Below, one piece after another: positions 58,005-64,000 of a DNA stretch of 64,000 nucleotides (its first letter is position 1; each line of letters starts with the position of its first letter). Both the position numbers and the translations under genes were made by a program. This stretch comes from Pseudoramibacter alactolyticus ATCC 23263 (GTDB lineage: Bacteria > Bacillota > Clostridia > Eubacteriales > Eubacteriaceae). The DNA lies in NCBI RefSeq assembly GCF_000185505.1, contig NZ_GL622359.1, forward strand, positions 1,089,412-1,153,411, read 5' to 3'. The notes below the pieces were generated by a model, which was not told the DNA's origin, did no database searches, and saw only the letters and a list, made by a program, of their open reading frames with translations.

Positions 58005-58042
58005 CAAAAGCCGGCGGCTCTGCAAGCCCCGGCTTTTATTTT
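58005..58042. terminator. Hairpin overlapping the end of the TIM-barrel gene
   Basis: AAAAGCCGG (58006-58014) pairs with CCGGCTTTT (58029-58037), overlapping the stop of the minus-strand gene. T tracts occur on both sides. Confidence 0.65.
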
Positions 58043-58902
58043 TTCGCATTTTTCCGTCTCCTTATCCGAGACGGATTCTGTTTAAAATCCGCAATCAAAC
58101 GGTTCACCTGATCGTGCACCGCAAGGCAGAAGTCCCGCGGATTCCGGTCCTGCCAAAAATGCGCCGCAATCAGCTCGCAGGAAAGGACGTGCCAGCCGAC
58201 GGCATCCAGCTGCGCCATCACATCCGGCAGGGGCAAAAATCCCTCGCCGGGAATCCAATGTCGGTCCAGATGGCCATCATTATCTGAAAAATGCAGGGCC
58301 TTGAGGCGGCTGCCGTAGTCTTTCAGAATGCGCCCCCGCCCACATGGCAACATATAGTCGTGAGAGACATCGTAGCACAAGCCGAAATGCTCCGCATCGA
58401 TAGCATCGAGCAGCCCTTTGAGCAAAAATTGCCGAGTCACATTTTCCACCGCGATGTCGACCCCGTATTTTTCACCGGCGTCGGCCAGTTCCGAGAAAAA
58501 AGCCCGTCCGTTATCAAAAGCGTAAGGGCCCAGCTCGAAATCGACGGTGTGCACCACGATCGCCGGCACAGCAAAACGGGCGCAATCCGCCACATAGCCG
58601 ATAAGACGGTCAAGGTATGCACGGTTTTCGGCCGGGGGGTTCTCCCAAATGCGGCTGTATCCCATATAGGGCGCGTGAAAATTGGTAATGCCGAGATGAT
58701 GGCGCGCCGCGAGCTCCGGAAAACGCTCCTTGGGAATGCGCACCGGGGCCGTCTCGTCCTCCCAGGAAAGCATCACTTCATCGAAGCCGGCATCGCGGAT
58801 GGCCGCCAGCCGCTCCTCAAGGGGCATAAAATAGCCGAACCAGGCAAACATGCTGGTGGTCCAGTCCTGCGCCGGTTCGGTTTTCTTTGATTTAACCTTC
58901 AT
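58036..58902 (-). CDS. Sugar-phosphate isomerase/epimerase-like TIM-barrel protein
   Basis: A 288-residue AP-endonuclease-2-type TIM barrel. Metal-site residues can be placed in VVHTVDFE, DIAVENVTRQ, LCYDVSHDY, ALHFSDNDGHLDRHW and the final SCELIA, so a divalent-metal isomerase or epimerase is likely. The start is set at ATG 58902, which overlaps the mtnA stop by 11 bases; it has no clear ribosome site and relies on coupling. Being third in an mtnP-mtnA operon, it may act on a methylthioribose-derived sugar phosphate, but nothing in the sequence proves that. Confidence 0.8.
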   Translation of the reverse strand: MKVKSKKTEPAQDWTTSMFAWFGYFMPLEERLAAIRDAGFDEVMLSWEDETAPVRIPKERFPELAARHHLGITNFHAPYMGYSRIWENPPAENRAYLDRLIGYVADCARFAVPAIVVHTVDFELGPYAFDNGRAFFSELADAGEKYGVDIAVENVTRQFLLKGLLDAIDAEHFGLCYDVSHDYMLPCGRGRILKDYGSRLKALHFSDNDGHLDRHWIPGEGFLPLPDVMAQLDAVGWHVLSCELIAAHFWQDRNPRDFCLAVHDQVNRLIADFKQNPSRIRRRKNAKK

Positions 58903-59920
58903 TTTTGAGTTTGGGAATGTGTTGGATATAGGGCGGATAGAGCACGCCCTTTTCCGTAATGATGGCCGAAACATTTTGATGCGGCGTCACGTCGAAGGCC
59001 GAATTTTCGAAGCGGATGCCCTCTGGCGCCGTCTGCACCCCGGCGAAATGCCCAACTTCATTGGGCTCGCGCTCCTCGATGACGATATCGTCCCCGGTCA
59101 TCATCTCGAAATCGATGGTCGAGGTCGGCGCCGCCACATAAAAGGGAATGCCGTTCTCCCTGGCAAGTACCGATACCGAATAGGTCCCGATTTTATTGGC
59201 CACATCACCATTTCGGGTGATACGGTCCGCTCCGACAATCACTGCGTCGATTTTACCCTGGCGCATCATCCAGCCCGCCATATTATCGGTGATCAGGGTG
59301 ACGGGAATGCCATCCTTGTGGAGCTCGTAGGCGGTGAGCCGCGCGCCCTGCAAAAGCGGACGGGTTTCGTCGGCATAAACGGAAATCTGTTTCCCGGCTT
59401 CGCAGGCCGCGCGAATCACCCCGAGGGCCGTGCCGTAATCCGCCGTGGCCAAAGCGCCGGCATTGCAATGGGTCAGCACCGTATCCCCCAGGTGAAGCAG
59501 CGCCGCTCCGGCTCGGCCCATGGCGCGGCACATGGCGATATCCTCGGCGCAAATCGCGTCGGCTTCGGCCCTAAGCGCCACATAGGCATCCTGCCCGGCA
59601 GTAAGGGCCGCCTTCAGGCAGGCCTCCTGCCGGTCGACGGCCCAGAAAAGGTTGACCGCCGTCGGCCGTGTCCCCCGCAGATCGTCGCAGGCCTGCTGCA
59701 TGCGTTCGGCAAAATCCGGGCGGCCGGCAAATTCCCGGGCGGCCAAAGCCACCGCATAACCCGCCGTCACGCCGATGGCCGGCGCCCCGCGCACCACCAT
59801 GGTCACAATGGCGTCGCACACGTCCCGGTAATCGGTGTAGCTGCGGATGACTTCCCGGGTGGGCAGCAGGGTCTGGTCGATCAGTTTTAACGCTTCGTCT
59901 TCGAAATAAACCGGCCGCAT
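58892..59920 (-). CDS. mtnA: S-methyl-5-thioribose-1-phosphate isomerase
   Basis: Converts methylthioribose-1-phosphate to methylthioribulose-1-phosphate in salvage of the methylthioadenosine left by polyamine synthesis. It has 342 residues. MVVRGAPAIGVTAGY, the catalytic Cys in LTHCNAGALAT and the catalytic Asp in IVGADRITRNGDVANKIG are diagnostic and separate it from eIF2B subunits. The ATG overlaps the mtnP stop by one base (TAATG). Confidence 0.95.
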   Translation of the reverse strand: MRPVYFEDEALKLIDQTLLPTREVIRSYTDYRDVCDAIVTMVVRGAPAIGVTAGYAVALAAREFAGRPDFAERMQQACDDLRGTRPTAVNLFWAVDRQEACLKAALTAGQDAYVALRAEADAICAEDIAMCRAMGRAGAALLHLGDTVLTHCNAGALATADYGTALGVIRAACEAGKQISVYADETRPLLQGARLTAYELHKDGIPVTLITDNMAGWMMRQGKIDAVIVGADRITRNGDVANKIGTYSVSVLARENGIPFYVAAPTSTIDFEMMTGDDIVIEEREPNEVGHFAGVQTAPEGIRFENSAFDVTPHQNVSAIITEKGVLYPPYIQHIPKLKNEG

Positions 59921-60678
59921 TATTTTCTCCCAATTCTTTCAATCATCCGGAAGATAAGGGCCTTCATTTTCTCCGTGTTTTCGGTCAGCACCTTCATCAC
60001 CATTTCGTTTGTGACCGGCGGAATGTCCGGGTTGTCCTTAAGTCCGGCGTCGTAATCCGTCACCAAAGCGATATTGACCACCGGCAGATTTTTTTCCTGG
60101 CAGAGATAGGCCTCGGGATATTGGGTCATGTTCACGAGATCGCCGCCGATCGTCGCAAAAAATTTACTTTCCGCCTTGGTGGAGAAGCGCGGCCCGTTAA
60201 TCACCACGGTGGTGCCGCCGTCGCGCATGGTGTGCCCCATGCGCGCCCCTTCTTCCAGAGCATACTGACGCAGCCTTTCGTCATAGGGCTCGGCAGAACT
60301 CAAATGCTCAACTTTCGGGCTTTCATAAAAGGTGTCTTTGCGGCCGGCCGTCATATTGATGTACTGATCGGTGACGACAAAATCGCCGGGCTTGTAATCT
60401 TCTCGCAACGAGCCGACACAATTCGCCGAGATCACCGCTTTAACGCCGAGCTGAGCCATCGCGTCCACATTGGCACGGTAATTCACTTCGGCGGGGCTAT
60501 AGATATGCCCCTTGCCATGGCGCGGCATAAAGGCGACCTTCTTGCCGTTCACCTCCAAAAGGCTGACGGCCTCTGACGGTTTGCCATAGGGCGTGTCCGC
60601 GTCGACCCGGCGGTATTCATCACCAAGCTCATACAGTCCGGAACCGCCGAACACACCAATATCTGCTGAATAATACAT
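59920..60678 (-). CDS. mtnP: S-methyl-5'-thioadenosine phosphorylase
   Basis: Splits methylthioadenosine with phosphate into adenine and methylthioribose-1-phosphate, the substrate of the next gene. It has 252 residues. GVFGGSGLYEL, FMPRHGKGHIYSP, ISANCVGSLREDY and VNMTQYPEAYL match MTA phosphorylase rather than general purine nucleoside phosphorylase. The frame is open 60 codons upstream, but ATG 60678 has a perfect AAAGGAGAA site and begins the family homology. It is first in the mtnP-mtnA-TIM-barrel operon. Confidence 0.95.
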   Translation of the reverse strand: MYYSADIGVFGGSGLYELGDEYRRVDADTPYGKPSEAVSLLEVNGKKVAFMPRHGKGHIYSPAEVNYRANVDAMAQLGVKAVISANCVGSLREDYKPGDFVVTDQYINMTAGRKDTFYESPKVEHLSSAEPYDERLRQYALEEGARMGHTMRDGGTTVVINGPRFSTKAESKFFATIGGDLVNMTQYPEAYLCQEKNLPVVNIALVTDYDAGLKDNPDIPPVTNEMVMKVLTENTEKMKALIFRMIERIGRK

Positions 60679-60699
60679 GTCGTTCTCCTTTTCTCTCTT

Positions 60700-60736
60700 T
60701 AAAAAACAACGGCGGCGACGTATAAGCGCCGCCGCT
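60700..60736 (-). terminator. Terminator after the DUF2284-type gene
   Basis: CGGCGGCG/CGCCGCCG perfect eight-base-pair stem followed on the minus strand by TTGTTTTTT, just before the mtnP ribosome site. Confidence 0.88.
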
Positions 60737-60760: not shown

Positions 60761-62680
60761 TTAATAATTCTTTTTCCTGCGCCAGGCGCCCTTTTCATAC
60801 TGGTCACCTTCGCCGATATCGGCTTTAAAGCCCAGCCATTTATAGCGGGTGTCGTCATCCCCTTTCAGATCGTTGGGGTCCGCCGGCGCTTCAGAATCCG
60901 GTGCCTGCGCTGCCGATGCCGCCGGGGCTTCAGACGCGGCCGCTTCAGTGCTCGGCGCCGCCTCCGAAGGCTCCGGAATGTCTTCGCAAATCACGTCCTG
61001 GGCGGTTTCAAAAGCATCGTCTTCATAGGATTCGGCCGCCTCGTAATCCTCGACCGCTGGCTCTTCCGTTTCGGATACCACGGCCTGGGCAATGGCCAGT
61101 GCCGCCCCCAGCACATCCTGGGAGGCCTTTGGTTTGAGGCGTCCCTTTTTCCTCGCCGGCTTGGGCTTCGCCACACGGCGTACTTTCCTGCGGACCTGCT
61201 GTTTTGGGGAAGATTTTTCCTCCGGCTGAGACACCGGTGAAACCGCCTCGGCAGCCGGCTCTGAGGTCTGCACCGCCGGCGCAGGTGCCGGTTGCGGCGG
61301 AGCCTGAGCCGGTATCGGCGGTTCCGGCGGCGCAGAATGGCTGCCCGGCGGATCGGACAACACCGTCGCACCCTCACTGCCCGGAGCCACATGCTCCTGA
61401 TGCTGCCGTTTGGTCACAGCTCCCTGCAGGGTTTCCGCCAGCAGCTGCATCACCTGGGCATCTGAAGCCTCCGGCATGGCCTTGCGAATGGTGCGCTCGA
61501 GCTCCTGGCGAATCGTCGCCAGCCGGTCAAACTGGATGTTATTCCCCTGGCTCTCATCATCCGGCGCTGTGGCACAGGCTGGCTGGGGTGACGGTTCTTC
61601 CGATGCGGCGGCTTCTTCCGTCACGTTAAACTTGGGAATAGGCCGCTCGCGCATCAGGGCTTCCGCTTCCTCCACCGGCCGTTTAAAGCCGAGCCATTTG
61701 TATTTGGGCTCGCCGTTTTCATCCAATGCTTCGGCATTTTCTTCCACCGGCTGCGGTTTCAATGCCGCTTCCGGCGCGCTGGGCTGCGGCGACGGGGCGA
61801 CGCGGTCGCCCTCGGGCTGCGCATCCGCCGCGTATTCCGGCGGCGGCCCGGGAAATTCAGCATCGCCCTGAGCCCAGGACCGGCTTTTCACAAAATCCCC
61901 GGAGCTCAGCGAATTGTCTTTAAAGCCCAGCCAGCTGCCGTGATCGCCTTGCACGGCTTCCTTGGCCGAAAGCTCCTGAGCCTGATGATCCAGCCAGCTG
62001 TCGAGCCGCTTGGCCTGGGGCGCGTCTTCTCCGCCTAAAATGGTCTGCCCCGCTTTGAGATAGCTCTTCTTCGCATCGGGAAAATAACTTTTAAGCTGCT
62101 GCATCGGAATCTTTTCGTTGGTCATCACCCCCATCAGGCAGGCGATTTTTTCCGGCAGATGATTGTCGGACGGCCACGAAAGCAACATCCCCACTTCAAA
62201 CTTCGCAATGGAATCCGCGTCGAGCCCCAGCGATTCCATCGAAAAGCGCATTAACTCCGAATGACGGCAGCGTTCGTGATTTTGCTTCGCACATTTGATC
62301 CCCGCCGCTTCGCAGATGTTGCAATTCCCGGGGCGCAGGGTCATCGCGTTGGAATAATCCTTCTCGATTTCGAGCAGGTCCCGCCAGCTTTCGGTGTTCA
62401 TGCGCGCCTGCACCTCTTCGATATAGTTTTTCGTGCGCACCACCCCGGTAATGGTCTGCTTGTGCTCCTTGGGCACGGCGTATTCCCGCCCGACGACATA
62501 AAGGTATTGGAATTGCTCGAGCAGCAGTTTCTCGTTAAAGCCAAACTCGGGGCAGGACCAGAATTTATTATATTTGGAACATCTCAGGCATTTCCCCCGG
62601 GCTTTGCGCAGGGAAAAATAATTCTCAATGATATCGTCCATCAAGAGCGGACCTGATGAAAATTTATGGGTGTATTCCAT
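60761..62680 (-). CDS. DUF2284-like Cys-rich protein with long disordered tail and three WLGFK motifs
   Basis: A 639-residue protein in two parts. The first 160 residues resemble DUF2284 metal-binding proteins: Cys 31, 34 and 43 (CLRCSKYNKFWSC), then Cys 120, 123, 130 and 138 (CNICEAAGIKC and CRHSELMRFSMESLGLD), suiting an Fe-S cluster or Zn. From about 235 onward it is low-complexity, rich in Pro, Ala and Glu, broken by one helical stretch (383-425) and one strongly basic patch (497-518). Within it WLGFK occurs three times (250-254, 329-333, 615-619), twice as YKWLGFK. No signal peptide is seen. It has its own promoter and terminator and is divergent from a NifU-like gene. The function is unknown. 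Confidence 0.85.
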   Translation of the reverse strand: MEYTHKFSSGPLLMDDIIENYFSLRKARGKCLRCSKYNKFWSCPEFGFNEKLLLEQFQYLYVVGREYAVPKEHKQTITGVVRTKNYIEEVQARMNTESWRDLLEIEKDYSNAMTLRPGNCNICEAAGIKCAKQNHERCRHSELMRFSMESLGLDADSIAKFEVGMLLSWPSDNHLPEKIACLMGVMTNEKIPMQQLKSYFPDAKKSYLKAGQTILGGEDAPQAKRLDSWLDHQAQELSAKEAVQGDHGSWLGFKDNSLSSGDFVKSRSWAQGDAEFPGPPPEYAADAQPEGDRVAPSPQPSAPEAALKPQPVEENAEALDENGEPKYKWLGFKRPVEEAEALMRERPIPKFNVTEEAAASEEPSPQPACATAPDDESQGNNIQFDRLATIRQELERTIRKAMPEASDAQVMQLLAETLQGAVTKRQHQEHVAPGSEGATVLSDPPGSHSAPPEPPIPAQAPPQPAPAPAVQTSEPAAEAVSPVSQPEEKSSPKQQVRRKVRRVAKPKPARKKGRLKPKASQDVLGAALAIAQAVVSETEEPAVEDYEAAESYEDDAFETAQDVICEDIPEPSEAAPSTEAAASEAPAASAAQAPDSEAPADPNDLKGDDDTRYKWLGFKADIGEGDQYEKGAWRRKKNY

Positions 62681-63056: not shown

Positions 63057-63749
63057 ATGGAATATTCTATTGAAGTCAAAAACATGTGTCCCGTCGCCAG
63101 CAACGGCAACCACGGACCCGCGCCCATCCCCGAAGAGGGCCAATGGGTTCGGGCGAAAGAAATTAAAGATATTGCTGGCCTGACCCACGGGATCGGCTGG
63201 TGCGCCCCCCAGCAGGGCTGCTGTAAATTAACGCTGAACGTGAAGGAAGGCGTGATTCAGGAGGCGCTGGTCGAAACCATCGGCTGCTCCGGCATGACGC
63301 ACTCCGCCGCGATGGCCTCCGAAATTCTGCCGGGCAAGACCATTCTGGAAGCCCTGAACACAGACCTCGTCTGCGACGCGATCAACACGGCGATGCGCGA
63401 ACTCTTCCTGCAGATCGTCTACGGCCGCACCCAGACCGCCTTCTCAGAAAACGGCATGCCCGTCGGCGCCGGCCTCGAAGACCTCGGCAAGGGGCTGCGC
63501 TCCCAGGTAGGCACGATGTACGGCACGCTTCCCAAGGGGCCCCGCTATCTCGAAATGGCCGAAGGCTATGTCACCCGTCTCGCGCTTAACGACCGCGACG
63601 AAATTGTCGGCTATGCCTACATCAATCTGGGCGTGATGATGGCGGCGATTAAAAAAGGCGTCGATGCCAACGAAGCCCTCAAGCAGGCTTCGGGCCAGTA
63701 TGGTCAGTTTGACAATGCTGCGAAAACCATCGACCCGCGGGAAGCGTAA
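63057..63749 (+). CDS. NifU-like iron-sulfur assembly scaffold-type protein
   Basis: A 230-residue protein of the NifU N-terminal/IscU-like family found paired with GGGtGRT proteins in Clostridia. The core ETIGCSGMTHSAAMASEILPG matches the NifU-like cysteine loop; further cysteines are at 11, 49, 55, 56, 77 and 106. The C-terminal half (GYVTRLALNDRDEIVGYAYI) is specific to this longer version. It probably carries or transfers an Fe-S cluster, but no cysteine desulfurase is adjacent, so the pathway it serves is open. ATG 63057 follows AAAGGAG. GGGtGRT starts 11 bases after the stop. Confidence 0.85.
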   Translation: MEYSIEVKNMCPVASNGNHGPAPIPEEGQWVRAKEIKDIAGLTHGIGWCAPQQGCCKLTLNVKEGVIQEALVETIGCSGMTHSAAMASEILPGKTILEALNTDLVCDAINTAMRELFLQIVYGRTQTAFSENGMPVGAGLEDLGKGLRSQVGTMYGTLPKGPRYLEMAEGYVTRLALNDRDEIVGYAYINLGVMMAAIKKGVDANEALKQASGQYGQFDNAAKTIDPREA

Positions 63750-63760
63750 GGAGGCACAAC

Positions 63761-64000
63761 ATGGCTTTATTTGAAAGTTACGAAAGAAGAATCGACAAAA
63801 TCAACCAAGTGCTCGCGGATAACGGCATTGCTTCCCTGGAGGATGCCAAGAAAATCTGCAACGATAAGGGCGTCGATGTCGCCGGCATTGTCCGCGGCAT
63901 CCAGACCATCTGTTTCGACAATGCCTGTTGGGCCTACACGATGGGCGCGGCGCTGGCCTTTAAACGCGGGGTGACCACCGCCGAGGAAGCCGCCGCCGTG
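63761..64000 (+). CDS. GGGtGRT protein (3' end outside window)
   Basis: The first 80 codons of an open frame that runs off the window end. MALFESYERRIDKINQVL, a central IVRGIQTICFDNACWAYTMG and the following Ala-rich helix are characteristic of the conserved clostridial family named for its GGGtGRT motif, which would lie further downstream. The start has AAGGAGG at ideal spacing and it is the second gene of an operon with the NifU-like protein. Its function is not established; the constant pairing suggests joint action in Fe-S or metal handling. Confidence 0.85.
   Translation, partial: MALFESYERRIDKINQVLADNGIASLEDAKKICNDKGVDVAGIVRGIQTICFDNACWAYTMGAALAFKRGVTTAEEAAAV

Follow-up and report, generated by a model that had tools for sequence, protein, structure and literature searches.

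A DUF2284 protein of Eubacteriaceae with a long disordered tail and a conserved, repeated WLGFK motif

Multivalent scaffolds built from short motifs are already known, as is the DUF2284 domain. CsoS2 of alpha-carboxysomes (PMC10484944) is a disordered chain that repeats short conserved motifs, and the gene analyzed here is alike in that layout, but no shell genes or Rubisco adjoin it, its motif is unrelated, and we claim no sequence relation. The arsenite methyltransferase/DUF2284 proteins and the MbdU selenoproteins (NF041536, NF045648) share the DUF2284 domain but are methyltransferase fusions and lack the tail. CblD/MMADHC, the MetH activation domain, and QueG resemble the head of the protein in the top structural matches, possibly only through a shared arrangement; CblD is reported to employ a modified nitroreductase fold in contacts between proteins (PMC4705923).

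The gene lies in a 64,000-nucleotide stretch of the Pseudoramibacter alactolyticus ATCC 23263 genome (the window), and a prediction made from the sequence alone had pointed to no described system with its layout. A literature search bore this out, as it found no published description of the combination, the motif, or the family-wide conservation; DUF2284 itself is mentioned in the literature found, WLGFK is not, and nothing was found on Acetobacterium together with MTA phosphorylase. Searches of NCBIfam and PADLOC gave no family for the tailed protein. By the literature searched, what is new is thus the combination of DUF2284 with a multivalent motif chain, the WLGFK motif, and its conservation across the family. 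In bacterial housekeeping proteins, linear motifs that are both conserved and constant in number are seldom recognized. The WLGFK motif is near universal in Eubacteriaceae and confined to one protein, and it defines a 17-residue peptide as a possible bait, a direct route to what the widespread DUF2284 domain works with and to why three copies are kept.

The gene and its cysteine-rich head

The head was identified as DUF2284 (PF10050), a family of predicted metal-binding proteins, by a Pfam match that scored 59 bits where the cut-off is 25 (E 6e-16), and the degrees of cysteine conservation given in Table 1 were determined over 30 heads that included distant relatives. These two lines of evidence support the DUF2284-type head of the original prediction. 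By analogy with the family, the head would bind metal through its seven conserved cysteines. Weak Pfam matches to BRK and CBM_21 fell below the cut-off and were dropped as identities, and a PDB sequence search with the tailed protein returned no match. A frameshift fusion had been named as a possible source of the long tail; none was found, as head and tail are read in a single frame in almost all genomes and a split frame appears in one 80%-complete draft (G025).

Table 1 Features of the tailed DUF2284 gene and its surroundings (window coordinates)
Feature	Position	Strand	Basis or remark
AP_endonuc_2 / xylose-isomerase-like TIM barrel	58036..58974	(-)	ORF, start codon uncertain; family from orthologue
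mtnA-like (IF-2B family) isomerase	58892..59920	(-)	ORF; family from orthologue
mtnP, S-methyl-5'-thioadenosine phosphorylase	59920..60679	(-)	just under equivalog cut-off; P. porci orthologue
Hairpin plus T-run, terminator-like, between gene and mtnP	60712..60735	(-)	strongest stem, 9 pairs, 8 GC
Complete gene (639 aa), DUF2284 head with tail	60761..62680	(-)	ATG start, without internal stop
Tail, residues 205-639 (~435 residues), mostly disordered, Pro/Ala/Glu-rich	60764..62068	(-)	composition, AlphaFold2
Motif copy 3, YKWLGFK, residues 613-619	60824..60844	(-)	20 residues before C-terminus
Predicted helix, residues 522-536 (DVLGAALAIAQAVV region)	61073..61117	(-)	AlphaFold2, alignment; absent from most Acetobacterium
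Helix hairpin, residues 382-430	61391..61537	(-)	AlphaFold2, pLDDT ~96
RPIPKF, residues 346-351, conserved alongside copy 2	61628..61645	(-)	alignment, pN/pS 0.01
Motif copy 2, YKWLGFK, residues 327-333	61682..61702	(-)	motif search and alignment
Motif copy 1, SWLGFK, residues 249-254	61919..61936	(-)	motif search; absent from other four genomes of genus
Head, residues 1-204	62069..62680	(-)	DUF2284 match 26-179; conserved Cys 31, 34, 43, 120, 123, 130, 138
Second Cys cluster C120-x2-C123-x6-C130-x7-C138	62267..62323	(-)	invariant
First Cys cluster C31-x2-C34-x8-C43	62552..62590	(-)	at least 90% conserved
NifU/IscU-like protein, divergent	63057..63749	(+)	weak profile match and neighbourhood comparison
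GGGtGRT protein (PF14057), start; continues past window end	63761..64000	(+)	ORF, profile, relatives

An AlphaFold2 model of the head alone, built from 30 sequences, reached pLDDT 87 and pTM 0.84. Its best PDB matches were CblD (5a4r, Z 6.4 over 118 residues, rmsd 4.2) and TM0269, the stand-alone MetH activation domain (1j6r, Z 5.4), with a nitroreductase-group deiodinase (Z 5.1) and QueG (5d6s, Z 4.8) among the further matches. Twelve of the 13 top structural rows belonged to the nitroreductase-like, mostly B12-handling group, with all Z-scores below 8, identities of 4-14%, and Foldseek E values that were not significant; because of the low Z-scores and the lack of a significant Foldseek match, we treat the nitroreductase-like fold as a lead only.

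The surroundings of DUF2284 relatives elsewhere offer a similar lead. Among 53 such loci in the sample, a corrinoid protein with B12-binding domains was close by in eight, a URO-D-type methyltransferase in four, CobW in three, and MTTB in three, frequencies whose base rate is probably raised since several of the loci share genomes that may be rich in such genes. A relative in Fusobacterium (L086) adjoins CobA/CobO and CbiK genes. Three loci (L135, L138, L139) hold a conserved run of a MoxR-like ATPase, a protein of 940-980 aa that matches no Pfam family, a short DUF2284 protein, a URO-D-type methyltransferase, CobW, and a corrinoid protein. For the most part, the relatives sampled from the phylum have lengths of 160-260 aa or lie in frames of ~520 aa, and the long one examined is a methyltransferase fusion. 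It is a 516-aa paralogue from the same genome as the window (L001:394-1944; G000:C1, around 1568965-1569402) in which DUF2284 forms the C-terminal part, and it resembles the NF041536/NF045648 type while scoring far under the NCBIfam cut-offs. The gene directly after it has the appearance of a radical SAM protein.

By PF02607, the window's genome encodes a single corrinoid protein, an 805-aa MetH (L161:5738-8155) that lacks an activation domain, and MetH is ~800 aa long in nearly all Eubacteriaceae genomes searched. Searching the window's genome with PF02965 gave no match, and neither did the Thermotoga control, which holds the stand-alone activation protein 1j6r. A RACo-type activator (PF14574) is encoded elsewhere in the window's genome. 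Outside the narrower reading given below, we set aside the idea that the tailed protein is a missing MetH reactivator, as PF02965 was silent in the control too and the RACo-type activator may fill that niche. Taken together, these leads make it plausible that the DUF2284 domain in general handles corrinoids or Fe-S clusters, and they weakly suggest that the head of the tailed protein does so as well.

Conservation and selection in the tail

In a full-length AlphaFold2 model (25 sequences), the head was ordered, while 307 of the 639 residues, nearly all of them in the tail, had pLDDT values below 50, in keeping with the long disordered tail that had been predicted. The "helical stretch" noted there corresponds to the ordered hairpin at residues 382-430, which occurs only in the window's genus and its near relatives and is absent in Acetobacterium and Eubacterium callanderi. 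The motifs themselves had pLDDT values of about 50-65 and no confident structure.

The tail of the window protein contains three motifs of the form W-[LIV]-G-[FY]-K, for which the chance expectation, from composition alone and with W[LIVM]G[FY]K as the pattern, is about 1e-4 per tail. The gene was found in 37 of 40 Eubacteriaceae genomes, and the three genomes without it are incomplete drafts (70-92% complete). The motif is conserved across nine genera; carriers include Pseudoramibacter porci, Eubacterium barkeri, E. aggregans, E. callanderi, and many Acetobacterium species. Acetobacterium and E. callanderi are acetogens. Exactly three motifs were present in 31 of the 33 tails read, in which the linkers between motifs vary from 41 to 378 aa and the open frame from 370 to 769 aa. 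One family member has two motifs only (L018/L070, G005), and one clear copy was seen in the G021 reading (L046). The remaining four proteins from the window's genus lost copy 1 but have copy 3 twice, so that the count is still three. The G009 protein (L017/L069; L069:8001-10292), of 764 aa, has the most diverged head, from which the first Cys cluster (C31, C34, C43) is gone, and has kept its motifs, the third of which reads YKWLNYK. The original prediction had asked whether relatives carry WLGFK or vary it freely: the motif is present and does not vary freely, and its repetition is real; the three copies are a family trait and not a peculiarity of the window gene.

Among the relatives sampled outside Eubacteriaceae, no WLGFK tail was found, only short DUF2284 relatives. 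When a 21-base motif pattern was run against 391 genomes of the class, it recovered all eight family genomes in that sample and three others, and all three of the latter were short or unrelated chance frames. Since the three matches outside the family were chance contexts, we conclude that WLGFK belongs to one protein. Elsewhere in the same genomes, the motif occurred only in chance frames and in a few unrelated proteins (for example, in L047/L048).

Over 84 pairs of sequences, pN/pS was 0.037 for the motifs, 0.010 for the RPIPK[FM] segment after copy 2, 0.13 for the head, and 0.38 for the linkers. In 52 instances of YxWLGFK, the W and the last K were present in all 52 and the L and the G in 51 each, within a longer consensus of [ED]-E-D-D-[ST]-[KR]-Y-[KQ]-W-L-G-F-K-x-x-[LV]-[DE]-[DE]. 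Of the islands of conservation that had been expected in the tail, the WLGFK motifs were therefore upheld as being under strong selection; they are not the only ones, as RPIPK[FM] is equally conserved, and the basic patch is not conserved.

The copies also change together. In 29 of 31 proteins, residue 2 of the motif (K or Q) is the same in the first copy as in the last, against a mean of 15.5 in a shuffle that ignores kinship. Codons for the same residue differ between copies in 44% of cases, and recent gene conversion therefore does not explain the agreement. On a tree of the heads, parallel changes in both copies are seen from K/K to Q/Q in Acetobacterium and back to K/K in L025/L030, and, in L031, from F to Y. 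The simplest reading of these linked changes suggests that copies 2 and 3 may fit one shared pocket, and shared ancestry could partly account for the changes.

A single case of tail loss bears on the relation between the two parts of the protein. In a low-coverage Acetobacterium draft (L084:2822-3445), the gene ends with the head, and mtnP comes next. Its head is changed at 19 of the 142 positions that are invariant in ten relatives, as compared with 0-6 for each of the other rows (leave-one-out), and its pN/pS against relatives is 0.17-0.22, as compared with 0.00-0.16 among the other rows. This pattern fits a head that decays once the tail is gone, as if the head needed the tail, in what is one low-coverage draft genome.

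Possible roles of the repeated motif

We favor, with modest confidence, a model in which the DUF2284 head is held by a multivalent short-linear-motif tether on a putative, probably oligomeric partner. The scaffold or tether proposed in the original prediction remains the best mechanistic class, given selected motifs, free linkers, and predicted disorder. In this model, Eubacteriaceae would have turned a DUF2284 metalloprotein into a multivalent tether whose flexible tail presents a single short linear motif three times. Copies 2 and 3 would dock weakly and in trans into the same pocket on the partner, as copy 1 probably would too; three weak contacts would sum by avidity to a firm but mobile attachment, and the head would be kept close to its client.

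The chief alternative is a latch or self-association, in which the motifs would bind the DUF2284 head, either in cis or between copies, gating the metal site or forming head-to-tail oligomers or a condensate. The head and the motifs always occur in one chain, no neighbor is constant in every genome, and the head decays upon tail loss in L084, all of which would suit such docking; however, the motifs are of low confidence in the full-length model, and the G009 protein retains them on the most diverged head, one without its first Cys cluster. We regard this explanation as unlikely. Tethering to a separate partner also has a narrower form, in which a corrinoid- or Fe-S-handling chaperone would sit on a three-point docking tail, with WLGFK binding a client, or its oligomer, such as a methionine-salvage enzyme or the MetH without activation domain that is common to these genomes. 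We consider this form quite unlikely; if true, it would represent a bacterial, lineage-specific scaffold for metal-cofactor delivery.

Alternatively, the Trp/Phe/Lys motifs might bind membrane, RNA, or the cell envelope and so anchor the head. Every motif is aromatic plus basic, and the tail of the window protein has a strongly basic segment at about residues 495-520. But the acidic flanks (EEDDS before the motif, LDD after it) disfavor membrane or nucleic acid, the near-invariant G and the exact residue order fit a specific pocket better, and the basic segment is not conserved, which leaves anchoring of this kind highly doubtful. It is very improbable that the motifs are sites for a protease or a modifying enzyme: the repetition of identical short sites in a disordered chain would suit such a role, but no conserved maturation enzyme adjoins the gene, and a long flanking consensus is kept. 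Chance repeats in a low-complexity tail under little constraint, an idea that the compositionally biased linkers of variable length might invite, deserve next to no credence and are ruled out by the selection on the motif and its conservation across nine genera.

Genomic neighborhood and candidate partners

For the favored tether, gene linkage points first to the NifU-like/GGGtGRT pair and to the methionine-salvage enzymes MtnP and MtnA as candidate partners. The predicted divergence of the gene from an Fe-S scaffold pair recurs among relatives: of 25 related loci, 22 have the NifU-like gene as a divergent neighbor, with GGGtGRT next in line if the contig extends that far, and the exceptions to this layout are L065 and L069, where GGGtGRT lies elsewhere, and L072, where the contig ends. 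The tailed gene and GGGtGRT agree in presence or absence in all but one of 40 genomes (39), which is weak support for a partnership because both genes are near universal and lie far apart or on other contigs in three genomes (G007, G009, G014). The GGGtGRT/NifU pair responds to iron in Bacteroides thetaiotaomicron (PMC10434189), and the GGGtGRT protein changes with iron supply in Clostridium pasteurianum (PMC5395762). An Rfam search of the divergent intergenic region gave nothing above chance.

On the other side, mtnP and mtnA lie downstream in nearly all of the 25 related loci, and in the window mtnP begins 81 nt downstream of the gene on the same strand. No single neighbor gene adjoins the tailed gene in every genome. 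The gene had been described as monocistronic. This is possible in the window species, where a hairpin and T-run precede mtnP (the search for terminator-like elements in the region gave 5 matches against 4.3 expected by chance), but it is not a trait of the family, in which the gene usually heads an mtnP-mtnA run, because in E. barkeri and E. aggregans its stop runs directly into the next ATG (TAAATG), that of an isochorismatase-family gene (assigned through the E. callanderi orthologue). In Acetobacterium (L074:11501-15689 and orthologues), four genes are found between mtnA and the TIM-barrel gene, encoding two glycosyltransferase-like proteins, a DegT aminotransferase, and an FAD/NAD-binding protein.
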